A stretch of 51,415 bases of DNA, taken from the IMG/VR virus record IMGVR_UViG_3300018083_000038, positions 1 through 51,415 of that record; one strand, given 5' to 3'. This DNA is from a virus. Positions 19,218-43,891 of the stretch are shown here, in pieces. The notes beneath the pieces were generated by a model. The model was not told where the DNA came from. It saw nothing but the letters and a program-made list of their open reading frames with translations, and searched no databases. Every line of letters starts with the position of its first letter. The stretch's first letter is position 1. The position numbers and the translations under genes are program-made.

Positions 19218-19634
19218 ATGGAAAAGATTTATTCAAAGGTCGATCCGGAATTATTGCTTCATGTAATAATAAGAAAAGAGGATGCCACCGATAAACGAAA
19301 CGATATCAGTCCGGAGGAAGATTTTTTACAGCTTGCTGTGATCAAATTCCCGAAAGGCAAAACATTCAGATTGCATTATCATATATGGAAGGATGCGCCA
19401 AAGTATCAGGTTATTACTCAGGAAAGTTGGGCTGTTATGCAGGGCAAAGTAAAGGCAATATTATATGACACAGACCACACATTATTGGCTGAACCCATCC
19501 TGAAAGCAGGCGATGGCAGTATTACTTTCCAGGGTGCGCATAATTATGAAATTCTGGAGGATGACACGATAATTTTTGAATATAAAACGGGGCCATATAA
19601 AGGCGTTGAAAACGATAAAGTATTTCTATCATGA
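19218..19634 (+). CDS. Cupin-fold protein, sugar-metabolism type
   Basis: This 138-residue protein shows the cupin pattern: a first motif HYHIWK at residues about 53-58 and a second, GDGSITFQGAHNYEILEDDTI, near residue 95. Beta strands fill the rest. Cupins of this shape in polysaccharide clusters act on, or bind, nucleotide sugars (WbuC- or FdtA-like). The start follows the GT-D stop by three bases, and its stop overlaps the next gene (ATGA). The reaction is not predicted. Confidence 0.6.
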   Translation: MEKIYSKVDPELLLHVIIRKEDATDKRNDISPEEDFLQLAVIKFPKGKTFRLHYHIWKDAPKYQVITQESWAVMQGKVKAILYDTDHTLLAEPILKAGDGSITFQGAHNYEILEDDTIIFEYKTGPYKGVENDKVFLS

Positions 19635-21209: not shown

Positions 21210-22249
21210 AGATTTGCTATGTCATAGCAACCTGGTCCGGCAAAAGGAGAAACCCTAGCACGGAGTATTTAAAAAAACATTTGAAGCGGTTGCTTGAATT
21301 ACAACATTCAATTGCCAAAATAATTGTCGTAAAGCCTATCGGCAGCGATGATGAAAGGTTTTATGATCTTGACCAGGAAACGTTGGCTAAAATTGAAATA
21401 CTCGAAAGGCCGGAAAATGACCGGTCATATGGGCAGTTTTTGTTCGCTTATAAGATATATGGCAACAAGTTTTCCCACTACATTATTGTCGAGGATGACT
21501 ATATCCCTAACCTGGACAATTTTGATTCGATTCTTTATAACATGATGAAGGAAAAGGGTTGCAATTACTTGTGCGGCAAATACGGCCGCGCTAAAAGAAC
21601 GGACCCATTTCATCCACAGCAAAACATGGGCATCGTGCAGGCCGCCGCCTTTGAAAAAATATTGAGCACGGACCCGAATCCTAAATTTTATAAAAACGGC
21701 GATAATGATGGCCAGGAGTTTATTATGTTCGGGAATTTGTTTGCAAACAATGGCCTAATAATTTCCGATTATTCAGATCATTATTCTGTTCCTTATTTTG
21801 ATAGATATATGCGTTGGTTTACGGCCAGCCGGTCGCTCGAAACTCTCTTTGTTCCATATCAGCTATTATACCACCGGGCATTTACTTACGACGAAGATAC
21901 CGAGGATTCGGTTGGAGATCCCTGTTCTCACTTCTTAATGGATATGTCATTTAACGGCATGAAGAATGGGATGTTTTTCTCCGTAATAATTGATGGGCAA
22001 TATGTCGGAAAGTTTGTAACACACAGGGAGAATAATTTGCTATTTATAGAGCTTAATCTTCACAACGAACATGATGGGGCGGTCTTAGAAAGGTTTGTTT
22101 ATGAAAACAGAAGCGAAACTGTTTATATGCGTCTCCCTTCAGGGGACCCTTTTATTCATAAACTGAAGTCTATTAAATGGCAAACAATATCTGGAGACAT
22201 GTCTACCATAACTATGAAAAAATACTACTATGAACAAGCACGAGATTAA
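21206..22249 (+). CDS. Glycosyltransferase, GT-A-like with extra C-terminal domain
   Basis: This 347-residue protein starts at GTG 21206, overlapping the methyltransferase stop. Residues 1-220 look like a glycosyltransferase: HYIIVEDDYIPN near residue 92 has the Glu-Asp-Asp metal-binding pattern, and the segment ending in LLYHRAFTYDEDTED reads as the end of the domain. Residues about 235-347 (FFSVIIDGQYVGKFV and following) form a separate beta-rich piece of unknown role. It overlaps the next gene by 20 bases. Confidence 0.55.
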   Translation: MKICYVIATWSGKRRNPSTEYLKKHLKRLLELQHSIAKIIVVKPIGSDDERFYDLDQETLAKIEILERPENDRSYGQFLFAYKIYGNKFSHYIIVEDDYIPNLDNFDSILYNMMKEKGCNYLCGKYGRAKRTDPFHPQQNMGIVQAAAFEKILSTDPNPKFYKNGDNDGQEFIMFGNLFANNGLIISDYSDHYSVPYFDRYMRWFTASRSLETLFVPYQLLYHRAFTYDEDTEDSVGDPCSHFLMDMSFNGMKNGMFFSVIIDGQYVGKFVTHRENNLLFIELNLHNEHDGAVLERFVYENRSETVYMRLPSGDPFIHKLKSIKWQTISGDMSTITMKKYYYEQARD

Positions 22250-22844
22250 GAAGATGATCGCTAAGGAAAATCCGGTAGTGCTGGATATTGGCTGTTACAA
22301 CGGAAAAGACAGCAAGGAACTAGCCGATATCCTTAACTGTGAAGTTCATTGCTTTGAGCCGGATCCTTTGTCGCAGGAAATATTCTTACAGGATCATATG
22401 AACGATCGTCGTTTGAAACTTTATGGTTGTGCATTGACGAATATTGATGGAGAGATTGATTTTTATCAAAGCGATCATCCGCAAAGTAATTCAGCCAGGC
22501 TGCCCCATGAACACTTGGATGTTTTCCCGGATATAAAATTTGATGATGTAATCACAGTATCCAGCGAAAGGCTGGATACCTGGTATCAGTCGGTCCTAAA
22601 AGATAAAATCATCGATTTTATTTGGGCTGATGTAAACGGGTCTGAAAAGGATCTGATCTATGGTGGAATCCATGCACTGAGTAAGACCCGTTTTTTATAC
22701 ATCGAGGCAGCAAAAAAAGAGCTTTACCAGGGACAGCCTCATTATGATTTCCTGAAAACTGCGCTTCCTAATTTCAAGGCATTGTGCATGTATAATTGGG
22801 GGGACAACTTCGGAAATATTTTATTAAAAAATATGGCACTATAA
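22230..22844 (+). CDS. FkbM-type SAM methyltransferase
   Basis: This 204-residue protein has the FkbM methyltransferase layout. VVLDIGCYNGKDS at residues 16-28 is the SAM-binding loop, followed by VHCFEPDPLSQEIF, the acidic strand-2 end. ERLDTWYQSVLKDKIIDFIW and ADVNGSEKDLIYGG are the family's later motifs (usually lDVEGaE). FkbM enzymes O-methylate sugars or polyketides. Two FkbM genes in one cluster suggest methylation at two positions or of two residues. Confidence 0.7.
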   Translation: MNKHEIKKMIAKENPVVLDIGCYNGKDSKELADILNCEVHCFEPDPLSQEIFLQDHMNDRRLKLYGCALTNIDGEIDFYQSDHPQSNSARLPHEHLDVFPDIKFDDVITVSSERLDTWYQSVLKDKIIDFIWADVNGSEKDLIYGGIHALSKTRFLYIEAAKKELYQGQPHYDFLKTALPNFKALCMYNWGDNFGNILLKNMAL

Positions 22845-22845
22845 G

Positions 22846-23055
22846 ATGAAAAACATGATTGACAAAAAGGTGGAGTTTGAATTGAGCCAACAAAATGGCA
22901 GCTCAAAATCTACTGGAACCATTATTGATGAAATTTGGCTTGCTGGCAGTGGCGGCGGCTATTACGTTTGTAGAGTTACAGGGTATATTATTTTAGATGA
23001 CGACGGGTCATTACACACCGTCAAACCCGATCAATTAAAAAGACTAATACAATGA
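22846..23055 (+). CDS. Small hypothetical protein in the glycan island
   Basis: This 69-residue protein appears beta-rich (VEFELSQQNGSSKSTGTIID, then GGGYYVCRVTGYIILDDDG). It has no signal peptide. ATGA overlap with the next gene supports a real coding gene. No family is recognised. Confidence 0.5.
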   Translation: MKNMIDKKVEFELSQQNGSSKSTGTIIDEIWLAGSGGGYYVCRVTGYIILDDDGSLHTVKPDQLKRLIQ

Positions 23056-23642
23056 ATTGGGAAACGGTAAAGGAATTCGAAAACAAGGTAGCTGAATTCT
23101 TCGGTGCACCATATGGAATTGCAGTTGATTCTGCGACACATGGCATGGAGCTTAGTTTGCGTTGGACCCATGCTGATATGATTTACTGCCCAAAGCGAAC
23201 TTACTTATCGGTACCAATGCTTGCTGATAAATTAAACATTAAAAGACAGTGGATGGATTGGAAGTGGTCCGAATACTATTGGCTCACTCCAAGGGTAATC
23301 GATGCTGCCGTATTCTGGAAAAGAAACGGGTATATCAGGACAACCTTTATGTGCCTGAGCTTTCAGTTCCAAAAGCATTTGAGCCTTGGTCGTGGTGGAA
23401 TGATATTGTGTGATAATGATGCTGCAGCCACAATTTTAAGAAGGATGGTATATGACGGCAGGGTTCCAGGGATCCCCTGGCGGGAACAGGACGTTGATAT
23501 GATAGGTTACCATTACTACATGACACCGGAAACAGCCCAGCTCGGGTTGGACAGGTTACAAACTGCTGTCGATACAGAACCAAAGAAATGGAAAATTGAA
23601 GATTGGCCGGATCTTACTACAATGAAAGTATTTAATATATGA
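23052..23642 (+). CDS. Miniature DegT/DnrJ-type aminotransferase-like protein
   Basis: This 196-residue protein resembles the core of DegT/DnrJ/EryC1 sugar aminotransferases. FENKVAEFFGAPYGIAVDSATHGMEL matches the N-terminal fold; FMCLSFQFQKHLSLGRGGMI at about residue 97 matches the segment carrying the PLP lysine (K in FQKHL); and the end keeps IGYHYYMTPETAQLGLDRL. Full enzymes have about 370-400 residues, so the C-terminal small domain and part of the large domain are gone. It may still bind PLP or may be a degenerate paralog. The likely product would be an amino sugar made from a GDP-keto sugar. Confidence 0.55.
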   Translation: MNWETVKEFENKVAEFFGAPYGIAVDSATHGMELSLRWTHADMIYCPKRTYLSVPMLADKLNIKRQWMDWKWSEYYWLTPRVIDAAVFWKRNGYIRTTFMCLSFQFQKHLSLGRGGMILCDNDAAATILRRMVYDGRVPGIPWREQDVDMIGYHYYMTPETAQLGLDRLQTAVDTEPKKWKIEDWPDLTTMKVFNI

Positions 23643-24190
23643 TCAGTGAAGAAGAAATAGAATTTTATAAAACAATTATTCACGAATTGAATATTGTCTT
23701 TGATGTTGGCTGCGGCGACGATAATATATTCGACGAATTAAAACCGGGCATTGAGGCGCATCTTTTCGATCCTCTAACTAATAAGCATTTACTTCCTAAG
23801 ATTGAAGGCAAAAAAAACATAAAGTATAACAACTTTGGATTAGGCAGCAAAAGAGCAATGATGAAATTTCATCCAGCATATTATTCTATTCTTCTGCGAA
23901 ACGATGTAAAAAGATTTACAGATCACAGCGAGATTGAAATATTTGTTGATACTGTTGATAACTATTGCGAAGGGAAAAAGATTAATAAAATTGATCTGTT
24001 AAAAATAGACACAGAAGGTTTCGATCTTGAGGTTATAATGGGCTCAGTGAACATGCTTGATAAAATTAAATACATACAGTTTGAAGATTGGACAAACGAA
24101 TTAACATTAGAAACATTACAACTACTGACGCCGTACAAAGACAAAATAGTTTTTAACAGCAATCCCAAAAATTATTTTATAACACTATGA
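23639..24190 (+). CDS. FkbM-type SAM methyltransferase (second copy)
   Basis: This 183-residue protein has the SAM-binding loop NIVFDVGCGDDNIFDEL at residues 18-34 and the FkbM hallmark KIDLLKIDTEGFDLEVIMG near residue 120, in which KIDTEG contributes to the active site. It is AT-richer than its neighbours by eye. It overlaps both adjacent genes by ATGA and probably methylates a sugar in the same pathway. Confidence 0.7.
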   Translation: MISEEEIEFYKTIIHELNIVFDVGCGDDNIFDELKPGIEAHLFDPLTNKHLLPKIEGKKNIKYNNFGLGSKRAMMKFHPAYYSILLRNDVKRFTDHSEIEIFVDTVDNYCEGKKINKIDLLKIDTEGFDLEVIMGSVNMLDKIKYIQFEDWTNELTLETLQLLTPYKDKIVFNSNPKNYFITL

Positions 24191-25176
24191 AAGCACTAAT
24201 ATCAGGCGTGAGCGGTCAGGATGGTTCTTACTTATCAGAATATCTTTTATCACTTGGTTACGAAGTGCACGGAATTATTCGCCGGAATAGTGTGCCGGAG
24301 CACCAGGAAAGCAGGATCGGGCATTTAGAATCTAAGGTGAAAACTTATTATGGCGATCTTATGGATATGGGATCGCTTCTTTCTATTATAGATGAAGTCA
24401 GGCCGGATGAAGTCTACAATTTAGCAGCCCAAAGTCACGTCAGAATAAGCAGCGAAGTGCAATCATTTACTGGAAATGTAAATGCCGTCGGTGCATTGAA
24501 TTTTTTACAGGTCGTCAAATTCATTTGCTCCAATGCCAAATATTATCAGGCAAGCAGCTCCGAAATGTTCGGGAATTCGCTTGATCAGGATGGCTTCCAA
24601 CGGGAAACTACAGCTATGCATCCCGTCAGCCCATATGGGTGCGCAAAACTTTATGCCTATCATATGACCAGGCATTACCGGAAGGCGTATAAAATGCATG
24701 CTTGCAACGGGATTCTATTTAATCATGAGAGCGAAAGACGCGGTAGCAATTTCGTAACCAACAAGGTTATAAAAGCTGCCGTAAGAATAAAATTAGGCTT
24801 ACAGGAAACAGTTGAAATGGGTAACCTGGATTCCTTCCGCGATTGGGGGCATTCAAAGGATTATGTACGAGCTATGCATATGATCCTCCAAAACCCTACC
24901 GCAGATGATTTTGTGGTGGCTACCGGAGAAAGTAGATCGGTGAGGCAAATGGTGGAATATGTTTTTGGGAAGCTGAACCTTGATTATAAAAAGCATGTGG
25001 TCATAAATCCAAAGTATTTGAGGCCGGACGAATTGCCTTACCTGCGTGGCGATGCATCGAAGATAATGGGAACTCTGCATTGGCAGCCGGAGATATCATT
25101 CGGAGAATTAATGCAGGAAATGATTGATCATTGGATGTCACACTTTTATGCTAAAAGATTACAACTTCCTAAATGA
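24187..25176 (+). CDS. gmd: GDP-mannose 4,6-dehydratase
   Basis: This 329-residue short-chain dehydrogenase-type enzyme has the GxxGxxG nucleotide-binding motif GVSGQDG at residues 7-13, SSSE near residue 126, and the catalytic YxxxK as YGCAK at residues 150-154. FNHESERRGSNFVTNKV is diagnostic for GDP-mannose 4,6-dehydratases. It converts GDP-D-mannose to GDP-4-dehydro-6-deoxy-D-mannose, the entry to GDP-fucose, GDP-rhamnose or GDP-perosamine. No fucose synthase is visible here, so the 4-keto sugar may go to the DegT-like protein or to host enzymes. It is slightly shorter than typical homologues. Confidence 0.85.
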   Translation: MKALISGVSGQDGSYLSEYLLSLGYEVHGIIRRNSVPEHQESRIGHLESKVKTYYGDLMDMGSLLSIIDEVRPDEVYNLAAQSHVRISSEVQSFTGNVNAVGALNFLQVVKFICSNAKYYQASSSEMFGNSLDQDGFQRETTAMHPVSPYGCAKLYAYHMTRHYRKAYKMHACNGILFNHESERRGSNFVTNKVIKAAVRIKLGLQETVEMGNLDSFRDWGHSKDYVRAMHMILQNPTADDFVVATGESRSVRQMVEYVFGKLNLDYKKHVVINPKYLRPDELPYLRGDASKIMGTLHWQPEISFGELMQEMIDHWMSHFYAKRLQLPK

Positions 25177-25856
25177 AAACAGTTTTTACAGCCGTCTTTG
25201 GACCATACGATGATTTAAAAACGCCACTGGTAGTTACTCCCGGCTGGCGTTATATATGTTTTACTGACCAGCCGTTCAAAAACGATGTGTGGGAAGTTAT
25301 TCAAAGGCCATTGATGCCGGAAGGGGCACCCAGGACGGCTCGGTTTTATAAGATCATGTTTCACCGGCACATTGAATCAGAAGATAGCCTGTGGATTGAT
25401 GCCAGTTTCATTATTAATTGTAACCTGGATGAATGGTGGAAGCGATTTAAAGAACCAATAACATGTGTAAAGCATCCCATTCGCAACGATGTATATAGCG
25501 AAGCACAGGCCTGTATTGATCAAAGGAGGGGAGACGGGCGGACAATAATGAAACAGGTTGAATTGTATTGGAAGATAGGGCTCCCGAAGAATAATGGGCT
25601 GATAGCTTCGGGGATACTGATGCGGCAGATGAAACAGCCGGTAATTGACATTTGTGATTTATGGTGGCGACACTTGTGTGAACATAGCAGCAGGGACCAG
25701 ATTTCTCTGGCATATGCCGTCTGGAAGATGCCGATCCCTTATTATACAGAATACAACTACAGCGGGGAAACAGATTTTTTGTATATGTATCATTTGAATT
25801 CACCGAAGCGGCAGAAAAAGATTGACTATTATAAATCTATAAACATTTTAAAGTGA
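25173..25856 (+). CDS. Glycosyltransferase-like protein (DUF616 type)
   Basis: This 227-residue protein begins MKTVFTAVFGPYDDLKTPLV, has ICFTDQPFKNDVWEV, and includes SLWIDASFIINCN, the acidic segment expected of a glycosyltransferase nucleotide-sugar site. SSRDQISLAYAVWKMPIPY is typical of the DUF616 family. It probably adds a hexose, though the donor and linkage are unknown. It overlaps the dehydratase and next methyltransferase genes by ATGA/GTGA. Confidence 0.6.
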   Translation: MKTVFTAVFGPYDDLKTPLVVTPGWRYICFTDQPFKNDVWEVIQRPLMPEGAPRTARFYKIMFHRHIESEDSLWIDASFIINCNLDEWWKRFKEPITCVKHPIRNDVYSEAQACIDQRRGDGRTIMKQVELYWKIGLPKNNGLIASGILMRQMKQPVIDICDLWWRHLCEHSSRDQISLAYAVWKMPIPYYTEYNYSGETDFLYMYHLNSPKRQKKIDYYKSINILK

Positions 25857-26428
25857 ATCACACCAGTATTTTGAATTTGATCGCTGAAAAAATAAAGGCG
25901 ACATCGTATTTGGAAATTGGTGTGCAGAACACGGCGAACAACTTTGATAAAATAAAGGTTCAGGATAAGATTGGCGTGGATCCAAATGTCCAGAACAGCA
26001 AGATTCTGCCAATTACTTCGGATGCTTTCTTCCGTTTGAGTTCAAAGCATTTTAAGCTGGCTTTTATTGATGGCCTGCATCATGATGACCAGGTCAAAAG
26101 AGATATTATCAATACTTGGTTCGCCTTAAAGCCAGGCGGCGTTATGCTGATACATGACTGCAATCCCGATCGGGAAGATATAACGCATACTCCACGGGAT
26201 AGCAAAATTTGGACAGGCAATGTTTATAAAACAGTTTGTCAGATTGTTTCACCAATGAAGTTTACTGTGGACGTGGATTATGGCTGTTGCATTTTGAAAA
26301 ATAATGACGAAAGGTTGTTGTTTAATGACAGTGATGTAACGTGGGAACAATTCTCGGCAAACAAAAAGCAATTGTTAAACCTGGTATCTGTATTTGATGC
26401 ACTAAAAATTATCGAATCTTGGACATAG
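25853..26428 (+). CDS. Class I SAM methyltransferase (Methyltransf_24-like)
   Basis: This 191-residue protein starts at GTG 25853 overlapping the previous stop. TSYLEIGVQNTANNF is the SAM-binding loop, KLAFIDGLHHDDQVKRDI the family's second motif, and LKPGGVMLIHDCNPD the third. Such enzymes methylate glycan O or N positions. It is the fourth methyltransferase of the cluster. The 3' end overlaps the next gene by about 10 bases. Confidence 0.65.
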   Translation: MNHTSILNLIAEKIKATSYLEIGVQNTANNFDKIKVQDKIGVDPNVQNSKILPITSDAFFRLSSKHFKLAFIDGLHHDDQVKRDIINTWFALKPGGVMLIHDCNPDREDITHTPRDSKIWTGNVYKTVCQIVSPMKFTVDVDYGCCILKNNDERLLFNDSDVTWEQFSANKKQLLNLVSVFDALKIIESWT

Positions 26429-27138
26429 TATATATTGTCGGCGCGGACACAAGGCACGATTACGTGGAGCTAAAGTATTCCATCCGGTCTATGCAGAAGC
26501 ATTTGGATAATATCGGAAAATTGGTCATCGTGGGAACGATGCCGGCCTTCGTTCAAGATGCCATTCATATACCAGCTGGGGATCCACACAAGCATAATGA
26601 TGCCCGGAATATCTATGAAAAGATTCTGGCCGCCTGCAGCGATCCCCGGGTCGGAAAGAAATCACTTTACTGCAGCGATGATTATTTTCTTCACCGGGAC
26701 TTCAGCAGCGAAACATTCCCTTGTTTTTATGAAGGCGATATCATTACTGTTAATAAAAGAGTGAGTGCAACGGGAACCTATAAGCCATATGTGGAATCTA
26801 CACTGAGGGTATTGCAGGAAAAAAATCTGCCGCTTAAATATTTCAATGTGCACTGCCCGATCATTTATGACAAGGATTTATTCAATGAGATAATGCCGGC
26901 TTTTGATTGGTCTGTGAGGTTCGGATATATCAGTAAATCACTTTACTGTAATGCGCTTAAAATTGAAGGTGTGCCTTTTGGTGGTTTAGAAAAAATTGGC
27001 ACCCCGAAAACAAAAACAGCTATCGCCAGAAGAATTGATGGTATGCCATTTTTTTCCACAAATCATCATGCAATAAATGCAGAAATGAAGGAAACGCTGG
27101 AGGAATTATATCCTGTAAAATCAAAATGGGAAACATGA
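26419..27138 (+). CDS. Stealth-like sugar-phosphate or glycosyl transferase
   Basis: This 239-residue protein begins at TTG 26419 with DIVYIVGADTRHDYVELKYSIRSMQKHL, a segment like the CR1-CR2 region of Stealth/capsule hexose-phosphate transferases. SLYCSDDYFLHRDF carries the acidic motif typical of the active site. The middle has FNVHCPIIYDKDLF. Full Stealth proteins are longer and have more conserved regions, so this is a trimmed form. The product would be a phosphosugar or glycan linkage, which is not determined. TTG is an unusual start, but no other start sits near the upstream stop. Confidence 0.5.
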   Translation: MDIVYIVGADTRHDYVELKYSIRSMQKHLDNIGKLVIVGTMPAFVQDAIHIPAGDPHKHNDARNIYEKILAACSDPRVGKKSLYCSDDYFLHRDFSSETFPCFYEGDIITVNKRVSATGTYKPYVESTLRVLQEKNLPLKYFNVHCPIIYDKDLFNEIMPAFDWSVRFGYISKSLYCNALKIEGVPFGGLEKIGTPKTKTAIARRIDGMPFFSTNHHAINAEMKETLEELYPVKSKWET

Positions 27139-27572
27139 AAATACTAATCCTTACCCTTCTTCTTTTGATGATTACAGTTACTACCTGTATCAAAGAGCCA
27201 TGCTTCACAGAAATTAGGGTGCCAGTGACGATGTTTTGCAAAAACACCTCAAACTTAAAGTCTATAGAAATTCACTTTCTGCAAGGGGACAGAGTGGTTG
27301 GTGCTGATATTCAAAACCAATCTAATTTTATTAATGATACTTCTTTGATCGTTTACAAATTTAAAGACACCGATCCTGACTTTGTTGTTTTCAAAACTTA
27401 TACCTGGGATGCAGGATGGGCTGAATATGGGACTCACATATTATTAGATACAACACTGACAAATAGCACCCAGGAGAACGGTGTCGTTATCGACTTCCAG
27501 GTATCAAAAGAAGAATGGCTGAACTGCAAAGGACTCCAAATTCAAAACTCGCACGGAACGGAAAAGCAGTGA
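27135..27572 (+). CDS. Lipoprotein-like secreted protein
   Basis: About 145 residues if ATG 27135 is used. It has an N-terminal hydrophobic segment ending in a Cys (MKILILTLLLLMITVTTC, Cys about residue 18), a loose lipobox with Thr before Cys. The rest is beta-rich with two or three more Cys. It is probably exported and lipid-anchored, perhaps facing the periplasm or surface. It ends the glycan island and is followed by a terminator. Confidence 0.5.
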   Translation: MKILILTLLLLMITVTTCIKEPCFTEIRVPVTMFCKNTSNLKSIEIHFLQGDRVVGADIQNQSNFINDTSLIVYKFKDTDPDFVVFKTYTWDAGWAEYGTHILLDTTLTNSTQENGVVIDFQVSKEEWLNCKGLQIQNSHGTEKQ

Positions 27573-33672: not shown

Positions 33673-35682
33673 ATGACAACTGAATTAATCAAACTTACCC
33701 TTACCAATTTTAAAGGGATCCGGCATTTCAGCTCGGAGTTTGGCCATGTTGCTAATATCTGCGGGGACAACGCTACAGGTAAGACAACACTGAAGGATGC
33801 TTTCCTCTGGCTGTTCTTTGGTAAGGACAGCACGGACCGCAAAGATTTTGAAATTAAAACACTGGATGAAAACAACCAGCCTTACCATAAGCTGGATCAT
33901 GAAGTGGAAGCACTGATCCGGGTAGATGATGAGCAGATTGTCATCCGCAGGACCATGCGGGAGAAGTGGGTAAAGAAACGTGGAGAGCAGGATGCTATCT
34001 TTTCCGGCCATGAGACCGCTTTCTTCTGGAACGATGTTCCGATGAAGGAAGGAGAGTACCAGGCAAAGGTGGCCAGTGTTTTCAATGAAAACATTTTCAA
34101 GCTGATCACCAACACCGACTATTTCAATTCACTAAAATGGCAGGACCGTCGCGGTGTGCTCATGCAAATGGCCGGCACCATATCAAACGATGATGTTTTC
34201 AGTTCCATTCTAACCTCTGCCAATAAGGGAAATTTCACAGCGCTGATCAATGCACTCAACCAAAAGAAAACCGTTGAGGATTTCAAAAAGGAAATCGTTG
34301 CCAAAAAGAAAAAGATCAAAGATGAGCTGGAGCAGCTGCCGGCACGTATCGATGAAGCTAACCGCTCCCTCCCGGAGGTTACAGACTATACTTTGATTGA
34401 AAAATCCATACAAACCAATAAAGACGTTTTGGACAATGTAGAGGATCTCGTTTCAAACAAGACAAAGGCGCAGAAAGAATACCAGGATGCTATGATGGCA
34501 AAGATCCGTGAGGTAGGAACGTTGCGCCAGGAAGCCCAGCAGATTGAATTCAACGAACAACAGAAGGCAAAGGAGCATAAGATCGAGAGAGAAAAAGCGA
34601 TCCTAAATAAGAAATCAGAACTGCGGGTCAAGAATGACGAACGGAGCCGGCTCCTTGTTGATTACGCTACAGAAGAAAAAAGGAAGACAGCATTGCAACT
34701 AGTAAAAGATGAGCTGGCTAAGAAGTGGCAGGACATCAATGCGGAACAGCTGAAGTTTGATGAGAATGAATTTCATTGCCCGGCTTGTAAACGTGAATAT
34801 GAAACATCTGACATCGAAGCTAAAAAGACTGAGCTCATCAATAATTTCAATACTGACAAAACTCGCCGGCTGACTGATGTAACGGAACGTGGCAAAAAGC
34901 ACGCAGAAGATATCAGGATCATTGAAGCCAACATGGGTACCATCCAGAGCAAAGGACTGGTTTTGAAATCGGAAATCGATCTATTGCAGAATGATATATC
35001 CATCCTGGAACAGGAACACAGCAGGTTGTCGCAGAATGAAGAATTTGAAGTGAAGGAAGCTATCGCCAACAATACAGAGTTTATGGCGCTCCAGGAAAAG
35101 ATCACCATACTCAATGAAGAGATCAATACAAAACAGCCGGAAGAAAACAACGCCGAATTGATCGCACGTAAAAAAGAGCTGCAATCTAAAATTGATGAAC
35201 TGAAAGATCAGCTGGCCGGTAAAGCGCAGCGGGAAAAGACCCTGGCACGTATCACTGAATTAAAAGAACAGGAATCAAAGATGGCACAGGAGCTGGCCAG
35301 CCTGGAAGGTATTGAATTCAGCATTGAACAATTCGTGAAAGCAAAAATGGATGAACTGGAAAACCGTATCAATGGCCGCTTTAAAATTGTTCGCTTTAAG
35401 ATGTTTGAAGAGCAGATCAATGGTGGCAGGGTAGAGGCCTGCACCACTCTAATCAACGGTGTGCCATACAGCGATGCGAATACTGCAGCCAGGATCCAGG
35501 CAGGCCTGGATATCATCAACACACTTTCTGATCACTACGAAACCTATGGTCCGGTATGGGTGGATAATCGTGAGAGTGTGATCCGTCTACCGGAAACAAA
35601 ATCCCAGCTGATCAATCTTATCGTATCCGAAAAATATAAGAAGCTGACTGTACTGCCCAGTGAAGAAATGGCAATGGCTTAA
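33673..35682 (+). CDS. Rad50/SbcC-like ATPase
   Basis: A 669-residue SMC-like ATPase. Walker A GDNATGKTT is at residues 31-39. A long coiled coil follows, with a zinc hook FHCPACKREY (C369-x-x-C372) in its middle. The C-terminal part has AGLDIINTLSDHYETYGPVW and WVDNRE (D631, E634), which read as a divergent signature/Walker B region. Such proteins bind DNA ends and work with a nuclease in recombination. It is shorter than bacterial SbcC (about 1000 residues), as usual in phages. RecT and a metallo-beta-lactamase-fold protein follow directly, forming a recombination module. Confidence 0.75.
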   Translation: MTTELIKLTLTNFKGIRHFSSEFGHVANICGDNATGKTTLKDAFLWLFFGKDSTDRKDFEIKTLDENNQPYHKLDHEVEALIRVDDEQIVIRRTMREKWVKKRGEQDAIFSGHETAFFWNDVPMKEGEYQAKVASVFNENIFKLITNTDYFNSLKWQDRRGVLMQMAGTISNDDVFSSILTSANKGNFTALINALNQKKTVEDFKKEIVAKKKKIKDELEQLPARIDEANRSLPEVTDYTLIEKSIQTNKDVLDNVEDLVSNKTKAQKEYQDAMMAKIREVGTLRQEAQQIEFNEQQKAKEHKIEREKAILNKKSELRVKNDERSRLLVDYATEEKRKTALQLVKDELAKKWQDINAEQLKFDENEFHCPACKREYETSDIEAKKTELINNFNTDKTRRLTDVTERGKKHAEDIRIIEANMGTIQSKGLVLKSEIDLLQNDISILEQEHSRLSQNEEFEVKEAIANNTEFMALQEKITILNEEINTKQPEENNAELIARKKELQSKIDELKDQLAGKAQREKTLARITELKEQESKMAQELASLEGIEFSIEQFVKAKMDELENRINGRFKIVRFKMFEEQINGGRVEACTTLINGVPYSDANTAARIQAGLDIINTLSDHYETYGPVWVDNRESVIRLPETKSQLINLIVSEKYKKLTVLPSEEMAMA

Positions 35683-35714: not shown

Positions 35715-36575
35715 ATGACTACGCAAACTCATAATAACGGCGCCACCGCCAACCTGCCGGCTGAAATAAAACCAAAGACGAAATCGGAGCTGATGCTTTC
35801 CTTCTTTGAAAAGGACACAGTGAAAACTCAGCTAAAAAACGCCATGCAGGATAATGCTGATTCATTTATCGCTTCGGTAATTGATTTATATACAGGTGAT
35901 GACACGCTTCAAAATTGCCACCCGGAGCTCGTGGGCATGCAGGCGCTAAAAGCAGCTGTGTTGAAACTGCCAATAATAAAGGCACTGGGCTTCGCTTATA
36001 TCGTTCCGTTTAAAAAAGACGGCAAACAGATCCCACAATTCATGATCGGCTACAAAGGTCTGATCCAGCTGGCGATCCGGACCAATCAATACCGGATTAT
36101 TAATGCCGATGTGGTTTATGAAGGTGAATATCGTTCGGCAAATAAGCTGACAGGTGAATTTGATCTTACTGGGCAGAAGAAAAGCGAAAACATTGTTGGA
36201 TACTTCGCTCATTTTGAAACCAAGGAAGGCTTTTCAAAAACGCTTTTCATGACAAAGGAGAGGGTAACAGCCCATGCACAGAAATACAGCAAATCATATG
36301 GTCAAAACTATTCTCCATGGAAAACTGAATTTGATGCTATGGCCATTAAAACGGTATTACGTGGGTTGATCAGCCATTGGGGTATCATGTCAACGGAAAT
36401 GCAGACAGCTATCAGCGATGATGACCGGGATGTTGCTGAAAAAACGCTGCAAGAAATTAAAACCAACGCCAATAAAAAGGACATGTCGTTTGATAATGTT
36501 GATGAAGCCACCCAAGTGGGCGAAGATCAAACGCAACATGCAAATAACAGCCAAGCCGAAAGAGCTCCATTCTAA
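35715..36575 (+). CDS. recT: RecT-family single-strand annealing protein
   Basis: A 286-residue protein with the RecT fold pattern: LVGMQALKAAVLKLPIIKAL, then GFAYIVPFKK, FMIGYKGLIQLAIRTNQY, and YSKSYGQNYSPWKTEFDAMA followed by KTVLRGLISHWG. RecT anneals single strands in phage recombination. The Asn/Gln-rich tail is a variable end. It lies between the Rad50-like ATPase and the metallo-beta-lactamase-fold gene. A recombinase close to a diversity-generating retroelement is notable because integration of the cDNA needs strand exchange or annealing. Confidence 0.85.
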   Translation: MTTQTHNNGATANLPAEIKPKTKSELMLSFFEKDTVKTQLKNAMQDNADSFIASVIDLYTGDDTLQNCHPELVGMQALKAAVLKLPIIKALGFAYIVPFKKDGKQIPQFMIGYKGLIQLAIRTNQYRIINADVVYEGEYRSANKLTGEFDLTGQKKSENIVGYFAHFETKEGFSKTLFMTKERVTAHAQKYSKSYGQNYSPWKTEFDAMAIKTVLRGLISHWGIMSTEMQTAISDDDRDVAEKTLQEIKTNANKKDMSFDNVDEATQVGEDQTQHANNSQAERAPF

Positions 36576-37316
36576 ATGCAACTAACCGTAATCAATAGTA
36601 ATAGTTCTGGTAATGCTTATGTATTGCACAACGAGTACGAAGCTTTACTGATTGAATGTGGTGTACGATTCGATCTGATAAAAAAGGCACTCAACTTCAA
36701 CCTGAAGAAGGTGGTTGGGTGCCTTATCTCCCACGAACACCTTGATCATTGCAAAGCTGTAAAGGATTTGATGGCTGCCGGCATCAATGTGTTTTCCACT
36801 TTCGGTTCGCTCAATGCCATGGGCGTTTCCATCAGTCACCGGGCTAATGCGATCACTCCAGGACAATCATTTCTTATTGGTGAATTCAAAATACTTCCTT
36901 TCACAGTGAAACATGACTGTGCGGATCCTGTGGGATACCTGATCAATCATAAAGAAACAGGCAATGTTCTTTTTCTTACCGACAGCTATTACTGTGAGTA
37001 CACATTCAAAGGACTGAACAATATCATCATCGAAGCCAACTATTGTCAGACCATCCTGGATAAGCGCCTCGAGGATGGCACCAACCCATTGTTCCTGCGG
37101 GATCGGGTGATCACCAGCCATATGAGCCTGGCAACTTGTAAGGAGACGCTAAAGGCGAACAACCTGGCAGATGTCAACAATGTGGTGCTGATCCACCTGA
37201 GTGATGGCAATAGCGATGCTCAACGGTTCAAACGGGAAGTACAGGAAGCCACTGGGAAAACAGTGCATGTAGCTGAACCTGGATTAACAATTGACTTCAA
37301 TAAACAACCATTTTAA
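36576..37316 (+). CDS. Metallo-beta-lactamase-fold hydrolase (possible exonuclease partner of RecT)
   Basis: A 246-residue protein with the HxHxDH metal motif HEHLDH (H53-H58). Its LTVINSNSSGNAYVLHNEYE start resembles YycJ/WalJ-type enzymes. Later metal ligands are likely His in VKHDCADP and HMSLATCKE. It probably cleaves phosphoester bonds. In this position it could be the 5'-3' exonuclease that prepares DNA ends for RecT, replacing lambda Exo or RecE. That pairing is inferred from position only. Confidence 0.65.
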   Translation: MQLTVINSNSSGNAYVLHNEYEALLIECGVRFDLIKKALNFNLKKVVGCLISHEHLDHCKAVKDLMAAGINVFSTFGSLNAMGVSISHRANAITPGQSFLIGEFKILPFTVKHDCADPVGYLINHKETGNVLFLTDSYYCEYTFKGLNNIIIEANYCQTILDKRLEDGTNPLFLRDRVITSHMSLATCKETLKANNLADVNNVVLIHLSDGNSDAQRFKREVQEATGKTVHVAEPGLTIDFNKQPF

Positions 37317-37325: not shown

Positions 37326-37793
37326 ATGGAAAATCTGCAAGTAACCAAAACCAATGCTATCACAGCCTATAATAATGGGGATTCGAGTATTAAAAAAGCC
37401 CTCATTGATCTTTTTGGTGAGGATTTCTTTACGCCAAAAAACATCATGGACCGGGTTAAGACAGTTGACGATGCTTTTGCTATTAAAGGAATTTCAATCG
37501 GCAGCATCGTCAATGATAATGATACCACGGATGAAATAGCTTATAAAATACTCAAAGTGATTGTGGAGGTATTGAACGAAGGTTGGGTACCAGACTGGAA
37601 AAACTCCAACCAGTACAAGTACTATCCGTGGTTTGATCTGTCTTCGGGTTCCGGCCTGTCGTGCAGCGACTACGTTGCTCTTAACTCGCTTTCGGATGTC
37701 GGCTCTCGCCTTTGCTTTAAAACTGCGGAGTTGGCTGAATACGCTGGCAAACAATTTATCAAAGAGTATACTGATTTTTTCATCATAAAATAA
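37326..37793 (+). CDS. DGR target protein 1 (variable protein)
   Basis: A 155-residue protein with no signal peptide. The N-terminal 70 residues are helical and unique. The shared part is KILKVIVEVLNEGWVPDWKN, KYYPWFDLSSGSGLS, the variable segment, then FKTAELAEYAGKQFI to the end. Residues 106-131 come from the variable repeat. The reading of the template after SSGSGLS would be YNDYDDHNSNSNVSSHLC; this gene reads CSDYVALNSLSDVGSRLC. Unlike most DGR targets, the variable part is followed by about 25 conserved residues. Binding target unknown. The 3' end overlaps the second target by one base (TAATG). Confidence 0.85.
   Translation: MENLQVTKTNAITAYNNGDSSIKKALIDLFGEDFFTPKNIMDRVKTVDDAFAIKGISIGSIVNDNDTTDEIAYKILKVIVEVLNEGWVPDWKNSNQYKYYPWFDLSSGSGLSCSDYVALNSLSDVGSRLCFKTAELAEYAGKQFIKEYTDFFIIK
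37641..37716 (+). repeat. DGR variable repeat 1 (VR1)
   Basis: 76 nt aligning gap-free to the template at 38215-38290. Of 17 template adenines, 11 differ here (A to G, T or C); all 59 non-adenine positions match. The first 22 nt contain no adenine and are identical. Confidence 0.95.
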
Positions 37794-38182
37794 TGTCCAT
37801 GTCTAAAATCAAAACATTTGAAGCTGCTTGCAAGTTTCTAAAACTGGATCCTGAAAAGGTATTACCCAAGGTAACGGGAGTTCCAAAGAATCACCAGGAT
37901 GCAATCGTTGCGCATGCAAAGCTGGTGATCATTGCTGAAGCATTAAATACAGAGGGGAATGATGGTAAGCCATGGAAACCTGATTGGACCAATGGAGATT
38001 GGGATAAGTACTATCCGTGGTTTGATCTGTCTTCGGGTTCCGGCCTGTCGTACGACGACTTCGTTGGTCATGGCTCGGGTTCGAGTGTCGGCTCTCGCCT
38101 TTGCTTTAAAAGCGCGGAGTTGGCGAAATATGCTGGTACTCAGTTCTTAAAATTATATGAACAATATTTTCTGCTGAAATAG
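37793..38182 (+). CDS. DGR target protein 2 (variable protein)
   Basis: A 129-residue paralog of the upstream protein, with a different N-terminus (SMSKIKTFEAACKFLKLDPE) and the shared KYYPWFDLSSGSGLS, variable segment and FKSAELAKYAGTQFLKLYEQ end. Residues 80-105 come from the variable repeat; after SSGSGLS it reads YDDFVGHGSGSSVGSRLC. No signal peptide or membrane segment is present, and the N-terminal part has no known domain. It is translated with target 1 through a one-base TAATG overlap. Function is unknown: it could bind a host or virion component that changes quickly. Confidence 0.85.
   Translation: MSMSKIKTFEAACKFLKLDPEKVLPKVTGVPKNHQDAIVAHAKLVIIAEALNTEGNDGKPWKPDWTNGDWDKYYPWFDLSSGSGLSYDDFVGHGSGSSVGSRLCFKSAELAKYAGTQFLKLYEQYFLLK
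38030..38105 (+). repeat. DGR variable repeat 2 (VR2)
   Basis: 76 nt aligning gap-free to the template. Twelve of 17 template adenines differ, no non-adenine position does. Four changes (relative positions 35 T, 61 G, 68 G and 72 T of the 76) are the same in both repeats. Confidence 0.95.
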
Positions 38183-38214
38183 CAGGAATGGGTGGTGTGC
38201 CGTCAGAGCGGCCT

Positions 38215-38290
38215 TCTTCGGGTTCCGGCCTGTCGTACAACGACTACGATGATCATAACTCGAATTCGAATGTCAGCTCTCACCTATGCT
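38215..38290 (+). repeat. DGR template repeat (TR)
   Basis: 76 nt, the conserved source for both variable repeats. It lies in the 214-base gap between target 2 and the reverse transcriptase. Read in the target frame it is open but ends in a stop just after the repeat, so it is not itself a gene. Its adenines mostly occupy first or second codon positions of AAC, AAT, TAC, GAT and CAC, as in other DGR templates. The last 20 nt (GTCAGCTCTCACCTATGCT) differ from the repeats only at adenines and may serve as the initiation-of-mutagenic-homing-like end. Confidence 0.95.
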
Positions 38291-38370
38291 GATTTTTTTA
38301 TAGCGGCGCAGACCCTGCCTCTTGGCAAAAGATAACTAAATAATAAAATTCATTGGTAGGGAAACTGAAG

Positions 38371-38400
38371 ATGAGTTTTAAAAGCAAAGCGCCTAAGTGA
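38371..38400 (+). other. Nine-codon mini-ORF overlapping the RT start
   Basis: ATG 38371 opens MSFKSKAPK and its TGA stop (38398-38400) overlaps the GTG start of the reverse transcriptase (38397-38399). It could couple translation and keep RT levels low. It may also be chance. Confidence 0.3.
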
Positions 38401-39356
38401 AACGAATTGGATCCATATATCAGAAAATTTACAGCATGGATAATCTTATCCTGGCTGATAATAAAGCCAGGAAAGGTAAAGCCTGGCAATATGGTGTCCG
38501 AATACATGATCAACACCGCGAAGCAAATCTTCTAACCTTACAGGACCAGCTGATCAATAAAAGCTATAAAACTTCGGAATATACAATCTTCAAAGTCTAT
38601 GAGCCAAAGGAGAGAGAGGTGTTCCGCCTGCCATATTTCCCTGATCGCATTACACACCATGCTATAATGAATCTCCTGGAGCCAATATTTGTTTCAGTAT
38701 TCACAGCCGATACATTTAGTTGTATAAAAGGAAGAGGCATTCACGCAGCTGCCAGCGCCGTTAAAACAGCTTTGACTGATGTGCCAGGTACCCTCTATTG
38801 TTTAAAGATGGATGTTAAGAAATTTTATCCTTCAATAGATCATGATGTTCTGAAACAGTTGCTACGAAGAAAAGTTAAGGATAATGATTTACTGTGGCTT
38901 TTGGATGAAATAATTGATAGTGCGCCCGGGTTGCCGATCGGTAACTACCTGAGCCAGTACCTGGCTAATTTCTATCTCACATATTTTGATCATTGGATCA
39001 AGGAGCAGCTGCAGGTGAAATATTATTTCCGTTATGCTGATGACCTGGTGATTCTATCCGCATGTAAAGATGAATTACATGACTTGTTTCTAAATATCCA
39101 ATCGTATTTGCTAACCAGGCTGAAGCTTATTGTGAAAAGTAACTGGCAGGTATTCCCGGTGGAGGCCAGGGGAATTGATTTTGTCGGTTATCGTTTCTGG
39201 CATACACATACTCTTCTCAGGAAAGGTATCAAGAAAAACTTTGCCCGCATGGTCCACATAAACCGTAACGATGCGTCGATCGCTTCATACCTGGGCTGGG
39301 CAAAGCATTGTAATAGTAATCATTTAATAAAAACATTATTGAATGAAGCAATTTAA
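38397..39356 (+). CDS. DGR-type reverse transcriptase
   Basis: A 319-residue reverse transcriptase. The N-terminus KRIGSIYQKIYSMDNL is the family's usual start. The catalytic YADD is at residues 213-216 (FRYADDLVIL), with the first Asp in LKMDVKKFYPSIDH. LPIGNYLSQ at residues 179-187 is the DGR-type version of motif 4 (other RTs have QG here). It should copy the template RNA with errors at adenines and feed the cDNA into the variable repeats. Start GTG 38397 is chosen because it restores the conserved N-terminus. It overlaps the next gene by 14 bases. No classical Avd gene is identified nearby. Confidence 0.9.
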   Translation: MKRIGSIYQKIYSMDNLILADNKARKGKAWQYGVRIHDQHREANLLTLQDQLINKSYKTSEYTIFKVYEPKEREVFRLPYFPDRITHHAIMNLLEPIFVSVFTADTFSCIKGRGIHAAASAVKTALTDVPGTLYCLKMDVKKFYPSIDHDVLKQLLRRKVKDNDLLWLLDEIIDSAPGLPIGNYLSQYLANFYLTYFDHWIKEQLQVKYYFRYADDLVILSACKDELHDLFLNIQSYLLTRLKLIVKSNWQVFPVEARGIDFVGYRFWHTHTLLRKGIKKNFARMVHINRNDASIASYLGWAKHCNSNHLIKTLLNEAI

Positions 39357-39645
39357 GGAATTGGGTATTGCCGCACCGGCCAAAGGATTTGTTGGCGACA
39401 AAATTAAGATCGCCAGGATCCTAAATAAAGAGGTTATGGTGGAGGCCTTTAAGATAGAAGCTTCCAAGTTCCTGGATAAAGGTTCTGGCCAGCGATTGTG
39501 CCTGCAACTGATGGTGGATGGCGATAAGAGGATCCTGTTTACCAGCTCCGGTTTTATGATGGATATGATAAAGAAAGTGCCGGCAGAACACTTTCCTTTC
39601 CTCACTACCATCTGTGAGATCAATGAACATTATGAGTTTACGTAA
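39343..39645 (+). CDS. Hypothetical protein overlapping the DGR reverse transcriptase
   Basis: A 100-residue protein beginning inside the RT gene (14-base overlap). It has an alternating beta pattern (KIKIARILNKEVMVEAFKIE and QRLCLQLMVDGDKRILFTSS) that could be an OB-like fold, with no known signature. Tight coupling to the RT hints at a role in retrohoming or in the recombination module. Its composition is unlike the helical Avd accessory protein. Confidence 0.5.
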   Translation: MKQFKELGIAAPAKGFVGDKIKIARILNKEVMVEAFKIEASKFLDKGSGQRLCLQLMVDGDKRILFTSSGFMMDMIKKVPAEHFPFLTTICEINEHYEFT

Positions 39646-40468: not shown

Positions 40469-40641
40469 CTGATTGGGAAAAAATAGTGTTTTGGCTTTTG
40501 AACGACGATGAAGGAAAGAGTGTACATAAATTGATTTGGGACGGTTTCGCTTATTTATCATTTAAAGGTGGTAGGCGGTTTAAGATAGATGATACCTGGA
40601 CATTGGAAAAAGTAAAAGAATTAATTAATAAATATCAATGA
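40465..40641 (+). CDS. Small hypothetical protein
   Basis: A 58-residue protein when started at ATG 40465, which overlaps the previous stop as ATGA. It is helical with many aromatic residues (MTDWEKIVFWLLNDDEGKSV). It also overlaps the ParB-like gene start by four bases. No family is recognised. Confidence 0.5.
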   Translation: MTDWEKIVFWLLNDDEGKSVHKLIWDGFAYLSFKGGRRFKIDDTWTLEKVKELINKYQ

Positions 40642-42560
40642 GTAAACCCAAAGCCGTAAAAATTCGTACCTGCCGCATCTGTGGTTGTACAGAAGATAAT
40701 TGCCAACAATGCGTCGAGAAGACCGGCTCTCCCTGTTATTGGATTGAAGAAGATCTCTGCAGCGCCTGTGCTAATAACCCGAATAAAGATGTTGATGTCA
40801 CTATGCAGTTGGGTAACTCCGAGGTGCCGCTAAAAATTCGGGTAAAAGACCTACTCAAAATATCTCCATCATCACAAAATAAAAATGCTATGTCACAACC
40901 TCAACTACAATTCGTTAAGCTATCCGATATCAACGCTTCTGAAACCAATCACCTGCAGCGGGAGAAATGGGAGCTGGAGGAAGGCGCCTTGAAAGAGCTG
41001 GCTGAAAGCATCTCGCAAAAAGGAGTAATACAGCCTATCATGCTTCGTCCTAATGGTAAGGCCGGCAAATACTTCCTGGTGTGCGGTGAACGGCGTTACC
41101 AAGCTTCGCTTCTGGCTAATCAAACGGAGATCCCGGCGTTCATTAAAACCATGACAGAGGATGAAGCCTTTGAACTGCAGATCACCGAGAACTTGCAGCG
41201 CAAGGATGTGCACCAGATAAAAGAAGCGCAGGCATATAAGGCGCTCATTGACTCGAACCCGGATAAAAATACTGTAAAGGAGCTGTCATTACGATTCGGC
41301 AAATCGGAAGCATACATCACGCAGCGACTGGCGTTCAACAATCTTATACCGGAAATGAAGAAAGAGTTTGCTGAAGGAAAGATGCTCATCGGACATGCCC
41401 AGCTGTTCTGCCGGCTGCAGCCCGTAGATCAAAAGGTAGCTTTTGAAGAGTGCAAGAATTATCATACTAAAGGATATCAATCTATTGACGAAGTTGAAGA
41501 GTGGATCGATGATGAGATCATGCATGTATTATCCGAAGCTCCATTTGATAAGAAGGATCCTCTCCTGGTGCCCAAAGCTGGTCCGTGTACCATATGCCCG
41601 AAGCAATCCGGAGGTAATTTATTATTCACTGATATCAAAGAGAAGGACCGATGCTTTGATGGTAATTGTTATGCTACAAAAAAACTAGCACACACGATTA
41701 ACCAGATCAACAACCTGGTACTTGCCGAACCATCTATGCCCGCAGTAAAATCGGGATATGAAAAAAGCGAAGCTGCTGTTGATAAACTGCTAAAGGATAA
41801 TAAAGTGAAGATCCTGGTGGAACATACTGATTATAACGAAGCCAATAAAAAAGACAAAGGATCCACCATGGCGCTGTGTATTGCTGGTCACAATATGGGA
41901 AAGATCATAGGCATCAAATTCAACCAAACTGAAAAAGCTACGTCGGCAAAAGCGGCAGCTGCGGAGTCCGATAAAGAAGTGCTTACTGCATCGGCGATAG
42001 ATCAGCAGATTGCCGGCATCAAAGAAAGAAAGAAGCGATCCGAAGAGCTGGACCTCGATAAAGTGCATCACCGTATAACCGAAAGGCTAAAAGATCTGCG
42101 GCCATATAAAGAGAAATATACCGGATCTCTGGATCCTGCAGAATATAATGCCCTAGTCTACCTAGCCTTTGAGAATGCCGGCTATGATGCCGAGCATCTC
42201 GTGCAAAAGGAGCTCAAATTAAAAGGAGGTCTAACGTACCGCGACGAAAAAATAAAACTCGTAGAGAAACTTGCGGAAGCTCCTGACGAACTAAAGAATC
42301 TGATCATCCGGTCGGCGATCGCAAACCGATATATCGGCCTTAACGTTTTACCGAGCATGAAAAGTCCAGGAGCCTGGTTGGTCCGCAGAATAGCTGAAAC
42401 TTATCCTGGAGTGCCTATTAAAGATTTCGAGAAGGAACAAAAGGTAATCAGTGATAAACGTGACGCTTCAGCTGCAAAAAGGATAGCAGACCTGCTGAAT
42501 AAAAAGAAGGACCTGAAACCCGCGAAGGCTAAACCGAAAAAGGCAGCTGCAAAGAAATGA
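40638..42560 (+). CDS. ParB-like protein with N-terminal Cys-rich domain
   Basis: A 640-residue protein. Residues 12-44 hold eight Cys (CRICGCTEDNCQQC, then CYW and CSAC), a likely zinc-binding module. Residues about 95-205 are a ParB nuclease-like domain with GERRY at residues 150-154 and NLQRKDVHQIKEAQAYKALI. Residues about 215-290 form a ParB helix-turn-helix (ELSLRFGKSEAYITQRLAF). The rest is a large extension ending in a Lys/Ala-rich tail (KPAKAKPKKAAAKK). It could bind parS-like sites or act as a DNA-binding regulator of replication or methylation; no ParA gene is visible. Confidence 0.75.
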   Translation: MSKPKAVKIRTCRICGCTEDNCQQCVEKTGSPCYWIEEDLCSACANNPNKDVDVTMQLGNSEVPLKIRVKDLLKISPSSQNKNAMSQPQLQFVKLSDINASETNHLQREKWELEEGALKELAESISQKGVIQPIMLRPNGKAGKYFLVCGERRYQASLLANQTEIPAFIKTMTEDEAFELQITENLQRKDVHQIKEAQAYKALIDSNPDKNTVKELSLRFGKSEAYITQRLAFNNLIPEMKKEFAEGKMLIGHAQLFCRLQPVDQKVAFEECKNYHTKGYQSIDEVEEWIDDEIMHVLSEAPFDKKDPLLVPKAGPCTICPKQSGGNLLFTDIKEKDRCFDGNCYATKKLAHTINQINNLVLAEPSMPAVKSGYEKSEAAVDKLLKDNKVKILVEHTDYNEANKKDKGSTMALCIAGHNMGKIIGIKFNQTEKATSAKAAAAESDKEVLTASAIDQQIAGIKERKKRSEELDLDKVHHRITERLKDLRPYKEKYTGSLDPAEYNALVYLAFENAGYDAEHLVQKELKLKGGLTYRDEKIKLVEKLAEAPDELKNLIIRSAIANRYIGLNVLPSMKSPGAWLVRRIAETYPGVPIKDFEKEQKVISDKRDASAAKRIADLLNKKKDLKPAKAKPKKAAAKK

Positions 42561-43132: not shown

Positions 43133-43891
43133 ATGGAACACCACGTATCTAAAATAAAAATCTATTGCACAGATAACTACAACGTTTTTAAGAAAGTTGA
43201 TGGTAACCGGGGCCTTAACACCAAGAAGATTGAACGGATCATTGCAGAGATAGAATCCGGCAACGATGTCCTGGATCTGCATCCGGTAGTGGTGAAGGAA
43301 AATAAATCTACATTGGAAGTGTTGGATGGCCAGCACCGGATTGAAGTCGCAAAAAAACTAAAGCGCCAGGTCCACTACGTGATCAAGAAAGAGGCTATGA
43401 ACCTATACCAGGTGGCCAAGGTAAATAGCAACGTGGAGAAGTGGAAAGCCGAAGACTTTATCAAATGTTATATCGCTGCCGGCAACAGCAACTATAAGCA
43501 GCTGGAAAAGTTTCATGAAACCTATAAGATTTCTATTGGTGTTTGCCTGACTATGCTGGACCAGGGAATCGTTAATACCGATCAGGGTGCTACTGTAGAG
43601 TTATACCGAAACTTCGAAACAGGCGTCTACGTGGTGAAAAAATATAAGGAAGCCGTCCAGCTGGCGGAGATCTGTAAATCATTTGAATCCTTTGAAGGAT
43701 GGAACAACAGGAGTTTCATCCTGGCTATATCCAAAATCGTAAGATCCGACAAATGCGAAATGGATGTGCTGCTGAAGAAATTCAAGGCGGATCCCCGGCT
43801 TCTGCAAAAGCAGTCAGACTGGAGGAAATACTTGACCAACCTGGAAGAGATCTATAACATAGGAAATCATAAACGGCGTGTGATCTTTTAA
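43133..43891 (+). CDS. ParB/sulfiredoxin-fold protein
   Basis: A 252-residue protein with a ParB/Srx-like N-terminal domain: DLHPVVVKENKSTLEVLDGQ and DGQHR at residues 65-69, the family's nucleotide-binding motif. The middle (WKAEDFIKCYIAAGNSNYKQ) and C-terminal helices are not a typical ParB HTH. It is shorter than the other ParB-like protein and probably has a different DNA role, such as a phage nuclease or regulator. Confidence 0.65.
   Translation: MEHHVSKIKIYCTDNYNVFKKVDGNRGLNTKKIERIIAEIESGNDVLDLHPVVVKENKSTLEVLDGQHRIEVAKKLKRQVHYVIKKEAMNLYQVAKVNSNVEKWKAEDFIKCYIAAGNSNYKQLEKFHETYKISIGVCLTMLDQGIVNTDQGATVELYRNFETGVYVVKKYKEAVQLAEICKSFESFEGWNNRSFILAISKIVRSDKCEMDVLLKKFKADPRLLQKQSDWRKYLTNLEEIYNIGNHKRRVIF

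Follow-up and report, generated by a model that had tools for sequence, protein, structure and literature searches.

Positions 37326 to 39645 of a 51.4-kb virus record from a phage of Bacteroidota (the window, meaning all 51,415 nt analysed) hold a cassette that we read, with a probability of about 0.6, as a functional diversity-generating retroelement (DGR) of the following kind. It would diversify two small proteins that are probably not part of the virion, and its homing to the variable repeats (VRs) would be primed by an element in the spacer between the template repeat (TR) and the reverse transcriptase (RT). Comparison of sequences confirmed the cassette as a bona fide DGR of a widespread variant. 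Its most interesting part is the spacer, which lay outside the description given in the original prediction.

Template, variable repeats and reverse transcriptase

The cassette and its upstream neighbours comprise the following features.
33673..35682, + strand: Rad50/SbcC-like ATPase (context; phrog_77, 5e-63)
35715..36575, + strand: RecT single-strand annealing protein (context; Pfam RecT, 4e-40)
36576..37316, + strand: metallo-beta-lactamase-fold hydrolase (context; phrog_392, 3.5e-73)
37326..37793, + strand: target T1, 155 aa, variable segment at residues ~106-130 (phrog_11581, E 2.4e-28)
37641..37716, + strand: VR1, 0 mismatches at the 59 non-A template positions, 11 at A
37707..37724, + strand: IMH of VR1 (CGCCTTTGCTTTAAAACT), complementary to the spacer element
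37793..38182, + strand: target T2, 129 aa (phrog_11581, E 5.5e-25; AlphaFold2 pLDDT 84)
38030..38105, + strand: VR2, 0 mismatches at non-A positions, 12 at A
38096..38113, + strand: IMH of VR2 (CGCCTTTGCTTTAAAAGC)
38215..38290, + strand: TR, 17 adenines; its 3' end at 38281-38290 (CACCTATGCT) is IMH*
38311..38388, + strand: RT-17 RNA (RF03020) with two hairpins, in the TR-RT spacer (43.2 bits against a gathering threshold of 40.4)
38374..38391, + strand: IMH-complementary element (AGTTTTAAAAGCAAAGCG), the proposed primer/guide segment of the template RNA
38397..39356, + strand: DGR reverse transcriptase, 319 aa, GTG start (RVT_1, 1.6e-16; phrog_1423, 3e-124; YADD, IGNYLSQ)
39343..39645, + strand: p100, predicted OB-fold accessory protein of 100 codons, overlapping the RT stop (conserved in 78/81 viral loci)

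TR aligned to VR1 and to VR2 without gaps over 76 nt, and 23 of the 23 mismatches fell at template adenines, a confinement with a hypergeometric chance of 2e-9 for VR1 and 2e-10 for VR2. These repeats were recovered independently by a repeat search, and no further TR copy was found in the window on either strand. The adenine-only exchange that had been predicted (11 and 12 of 17 adenines, 0 of 59 positions elsewhere) was borne out by our recount, as were the YADD and DGR-type IGNYLSQ motifs of the RT, which also matches RVT_1 and phrog_1423, retains an intact catalytic motif and is 38-58% identical to phage DGR RTs. The description of the DGR as complete holds for the core (TR, VRs and RT) and fails in the BPP-1 sense, there being neither Avd nor a VR-adjacent hairpin; moreover, the element had been ended at the RT, whereas the ORF at 39343-39645 belongs to the cassette as well. 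Avd (PF05635) was absent from the window at E<=1. A hairpin following VR1 or VR2 was rejected as a candidate, the stems being at shuffled level: the longest were 4 and 3 nt (8 in the BPP-1 control), and across the family the mean longest stem after VR was 3.9 compared with 3.66 in shuffled sequences.

At TR positions 61, 68 and 72, VR1 and VR2 carry the same base (G, G and T), and these constant TR/VR differences are kept in essentially all relatives. We regard the three adenines, on this pattern of conservation, as fixed IMH/IMH* differences and not as products of random mutagenesis, and the mutable set is therefore about 14 adenines. These 14 lie at TR positions 23-56, and 8 of them are changed in VR1 and 9 in VR2; the ten variable codons allow ~2 x 10^8 stop-free proteins per target. 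Position 61 (window 38275) lies upstream of the IMH-complementary element, yet both VRs and nearly all relatives have G there. Perhaps the Gly of VGSR is under selection, or cDNA synthesis begins further upstream.

More than 150 loci in phages and prophages share the order T1-T2-TR-RNA-RT-p100; most of them belong to Bacteroidota, and they lie in early/replication regions. Our viral set consisted of the best 80 of 572 RT relatives, with 67-83% identity to the window RT. In all but a few of these best 80, a de novo search for adenine-only repeats returned a TR with one to three VRs, and in nearly all of them T1 is followed by T2, each of ~120-160 aa. About 50 bacterial genome loci also keep the T1-T2-TR-RT-p100 order, their hosts including Chitinophagaceae, Flavobacterium, Chryseobacterium, Elizabethkingia, Pedobacter, Sphingobacterium, Dyadobacter, Ignavibacteria and others. 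Two targets per cassette are no oddity; they are the rule for this family. Some cassettes (L273, L266, L285, L291, L254, L259 and L313) have three to five targets, and some of these targets lie several kb from the RT.

Closely related copies of the cassette were compared for signs of recent activity. Between the prophage contigs L031 and L036 there were 11 differences, all at TR-A sites in VR, with none at the 110 other VR sites and none at 2,110 sites outside the VRs across the compared cassette. Pairwise comparison of L026, L038 and L041 gave 18-23 differences over the 38 TR-A sites and none over the remaining 116 VR sites. Population variants in these relatives are thus confined to adenine positions, as the original prediction had expected, and not spread equally over all positions. 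Judging by these relatives, nearly identical to one another, the DGR family is recently active.

Target proteins, p100 and genomic setting

The only family that matched T1 and T2 was phrog_11581, which is of unknown function, and T1 homologues occur in 79/81 viral loci. Searches of both proteins against Pfam, NCBIfam, PADLOC and PDB sequences returned nothing convincing, tblastn of T2 against GenBank phages gave no match, and no likeness of the targets to receptor-binding proteins was detectable. The AlphaFold2 model of T2 is helical, its VR region consisting of loops without strands at low confidence (pLDDT 53-60). The suggested check for a C-type lectin or Ig-like fold was run on this model, and neither Foldseek nor VIA-align found a fold, a result that speaks neither for nor against a C-lectin or Ig fold. 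Other expectations about the targets proved correct: they are tandem and homologous (both match phrog_11581), the VR is internal, with 20-25 residues after it, and hydropathy showed neither a signal peptide nor a membrane segment, so that the proteins look soluble.

Because T1 and T2 are small, lack export signals and lie in an early gene region, we tentatively suggest that they may serve as intracellular binders of variable specificity, whose ligands might belong, for instance, to host defences or to superinfecting phages. The alternative is that they are minor components of the virion that recognise the host, the usual role in phage DGRs, where tail proteins predominate among the targets (PMC8144416); genes distant from the tail module can, moreover, encode virion proteins. 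Against this, T1 and T2 are small and soluble with no detectable similarity to receptor-binding proteins, and they are encoded in the early regions of unrelated phages, Mu-like ones included. We therefore consider an intracellular binder, at somewhat better than even odds, likelier than a virion protein, the latter being a minority reading to which we give about one chance in four. An earlier example of a DGR target that is not part of the virion comes from Quimbyvirus, whose second target likewise lies outside the structural module and has been proposed to serve in phage-host conflict (PMC8008677). The Quimbyvirus DGR differs from the present case in having a C-type lectin target beside defence genes and an RT in three frames, whereas all targets of the window lie inside the cassette, in the early region. 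Two targets per cassette are also found in the nd4 and nd12 DGRs with tentaclins (PMC10743442), but these are large C-lectin and Ig proteins in a different topology, whereas the window pair is small and homologous.

The protein encoded downstream of the RT, p100, was present in 111/122 distinct loci. All 23 of its 23 matches in 22 whole genomes adjoin a DGR, and the 3 matches in 296 Bacteroidota genomes all lie beside a DGR RT. Since p100 also follows Deltaproteobacteria RTs of ~50% identity that have unrelated targets, its occurrence is tied to the RT, whatever the target. Searches in Pfam, NCBIfam, PADLOC and PDB sequences gave nothing convincing for p100. Its structure model (pLDDT 92.7) has as best structural neighbours PriB, SSB, LEF-3, RPA and RuvB-like OB domains, with Z scores of 4-6, weak in that all are below 7, and p100 is accordingly predicted to be an OB-fold protein. 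Many OB-fold proteins bind single strands, and p100 may do so too. No Avd-family matches were found near the cassettes, those in host genomes lying elsewhere; p100 appears to take over an accessory role in place of Avd.

The window also encodes ParB-like proteins and RecT, together with a DnaB helicase at 45508 and a terminase-like gene at 49296. The DGR is flanked by RecT and the metallo-hydrolase on one side and by a ParB gene on the other. The predicted adjacency of the targets to RecT and a Rad50-like ATPase was verified by the Pfam RecT and phrog_77 matches, but this neighbourhood is not specific to the cassette: by tblastn, RecT was found in only 3/81 viral loci, here and in two others, and a conserved functional link through RecT adjacency received no support. 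In bacterial genomes, Mu-like early genes (DUF3164, MuB-like ATPase) often precede the cassette. Upstream of T1 in ~40 genome loci we found DUF3164, MuB-like ATPases and transposases of Mu-like phages, primase, nucleotide enzymes and Gam, and no tail families appeared in the top lists of these upstream genes. The common denominator of the cassette locations is the early/replication region.

Several further observations concern the surrounding genome. The Rad50-like ATPase (33673-35682) resembles LmuB of the Lamassu defence (PADLOC E 2e-19) besides SbcC, and the metallo-hydrolase upstream of T1 (36576-37316) shows a sub-threshold likeness to the anti-Pycsar enzyme Apyc1 (E 0.02). Very large ORFs occupy 5265-13269, those at 7531 and 10849 having many PKD domains and DUF4832; their size and domain content are unusual for a phage of such genome size. 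A sugar-gene block at 18441-27572, possibly a phage-borne glycan pathway, includes a GT-D-like glycosyltransferase, an FkbM methyltransferase and a GDP-mannose 4,6-dehydratase. Two ParB-like proteins are encoded within one phage region, at 40638-42560 and 43133-43891.

A spacer element complementary to the IMH

The TR-RT spacer is 106 nt long. RNAalifold on 65 relatives predicted two hairpins, with compensatory changes in 10 of 11 consensus pairs, and the window spacer scores above the gathering threshold of the Rfam family RT-17 (RF03020), the match stopping at 38388, inside the IMH-complementary element. In the second hairpin the GUA strand is invariant and the GAA strand nearly so; these strands (~38356-38372 in the window) look like a loop-E (bulged-G) motif. 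Similar spacer hairpins occur in crAss-like and Firmicute phage DGRs.

A repeat search returned an imperfect inverted repeat between the end of VR1 (37707-37724) and the end of the spacer (38374-38391). With one bulge allowed per side, CGC(C)TTTGCTTTAAAACT of VR1 pairs with nearly all of AGTTTTAAAAGCAAAGCG. Across 112 loci with 208 VRs, the mean complementarity score was 9.0 between element and VR and 5.35 between element and TR, VR being the better partner in 193/208 VRs. When elements were shuffled among loci, the mean fell to 8.58 +/- 0.08, and the observed 9.01 was never reached in 200 trials. A scan along the spacer gave one sharp peak in the last ~15 nt before the RT, in the antisense orientation only, with the other segments at background.

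We then counted, with an anchor favouring neither VR nor TR, which base the element takes wherever the two diverge within the IMH. The VR base prevailed over the TR base by 344:19 in viral loci; genome loci with T1/T2-type targets gave 169:16, and loci with unrelated targets 36:3. The sum is 549:38, compared with ~2:1 for other spacer segments; since the loci are related by descent, these counts are not independent and the ratios are not probabilities. Deviant IMHs carry their own elements, as in L051 (GCCTTGTGTTT), L046 (GCCTTGTTT), L158 (TTGTTTTTAA), L308 (GGCATAT), L295 (TCCGTG) and L309 (Pumilibacter muris; GCTTTTGTGT), the last with several adenines changed at once, and Bacteroides phage Versailles has its own exact IMH/element match of 10 nt (TTGTGCCGTT).

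The relation takes other forms at greater distance. In distant loci (L283, L295, L308 and Perkons) the element is a mosaic, in which VR is matched by the ~6 nt closest to the priming site and the TR 3' flank by the ~6 nt that follow. The crAss-like DGRs (cr52_1, crAssphage LMMB) have RTs 48-58% identical to that of the window and recognisably alike spacer hairpins, but they differ in having tail targets and no p100 relative, and the pairing partner of their RT-proximal element is the TR 3' flank, not VR (11 nt in L087). A clear VR match of the element was not found in some genome loci with T2-type targets, nor was a clear case of the element in VP58.5, phiARM81mr or LoVEphage.

The BPP-1 DGR (mtd-avd-TR-brt) shares with the window the RT, the adenine-only TR/VR exchange, a structured TR-RT spacer and the IMH/IMH* distinction. 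It differs in having Avd where the window cassette has the predicted OB-fold gene p100, a single large tail target of the C-type lectin kind, whose VR lies at its extreme C-terminus, where the window has two small targets with internal VRs, and an 8-bp hairpin after VR, which the window family lacks. In both, known here from sequence, a spacer segment is complementary to the IMH. Nucleotides 48-56 of the BPP-1 spacer (AGGTGGTCA), 88 nt before the RT, are the exact complement of VR 118-126 (TGACCACCT), whereas TR has TGCCCATCA there, with three mismatches, and no match longer than 5 nt was found between IMH* and the spacer; shuffled BPP-1 IMHs reached 9 nt in 17/3,000 trials. Segment 48-56 ends at A56, which we take to be the priming nucleotide; the work of Naorem in 2017 and Handa in 2018 is said to place priming at A56 and the cDNA start near TR 117. 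If so, the BPP-1 primer and cDNA would together form one continuous complement of VR.

Proposed primer model, alternatives and significance

These data suggest a mechanism in which the TR-spacer transcript would fold back so that the element lies on IMH* with few mismatches. The element would act as the RNA primer strand, as spacer A56 does in BPP-1, and the RT would copy TR from it with misincorporation at adenines. The resulting RNA primer joined to cDNA would be a continuous complement of the VR coding strand across the IMH, and its pairing with its own template would be imperfect; it would therefore move to VR, and TR would not be converted. Such continuity of primer and cDNA would give homing its direction. 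VR might be opened by replication, with RecT and p100 possibly assisting the transfer, and element-IMH pairing would replace the VR-adjacent DNA hairpin used by BPP-1 and missing in the window family. An earlier version, in which the element is a guide to VR only, was dropped: the mosaic elements of distant loci have a TR-anchoring half, and the primer model was therefore adopted. A mosaic would suit a primer that sits on its own template and then leaves for VR. The G at position 61, upstream of the element, would be left by a simple primer model to selection on the protein.

The element might instead form an intramolecular stem with the TR 3' end for self-priming, its VR match stemming from TR/VR homology and having no targeting role. 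Partial pairing with IMH* does exist (CCUAUGCU/AGCAAAGG, one A.A mismatch), the crAss-like elements pair with the TR flank and not with VR, and half of each mosaic element matches that flank. Yet a stem with TR should follow TR, whereas the element follows VR by 549:38 where the two differ, and in L309 it does so at several changed adenines at once; we think this reading unlikely. It is less probable still that the likeness of IMH and element is a consequence of homing, the RNA primer having been copied or repaired into VR. The IMH bases are the same in VR1 and VR2 of most loci, as such imprinting would produce, but VR1 and VR2 differ inside the element footprint in L047, L098 and L017, and the IMH is also under protein constraint, because it encodes the conserved motif GSRL(C)F. 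The element also immediately precedes the RT start codon and includes AAAGG, as a translation signal for the RT with a coincidental IMH match might. We hold this to be very improbable, since anything from 1 to ~20 nt separates it from the start codon (L066), it changes together with the IMH in deviant loci, and BPP-1 shows the same relation 88 nt before the RT.

With priming by the element as the preferred reading, it is conceivable, at slightly less than even odds, that DGR template RNAs from BPP-1 to the Bacteroidota phages generally carry a self-aiming primer, which matches the IMH and mismatches IMH* and on which both the distinction of VR from TR and the one-way course of homing would rest. 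Synthesis of cDNA is primed within IMH* by an adenine internal to the spacer, and in 2026 it was incompletely understood how the mutagenised cDNA finds VR and why TR escapes overwriting (PMC12875486). The spacer-IMH complementarity turns the question of cDNA targeting into a testable base-pairing rule, and an element complementary to the target but not to the template may explain how a DGR edits its target and never its own template. Furthermore, the family adds a large set of phage DGRs with small, paired, apparently intracellular targets and, instead of Avd, a new gene coupled to the RT.
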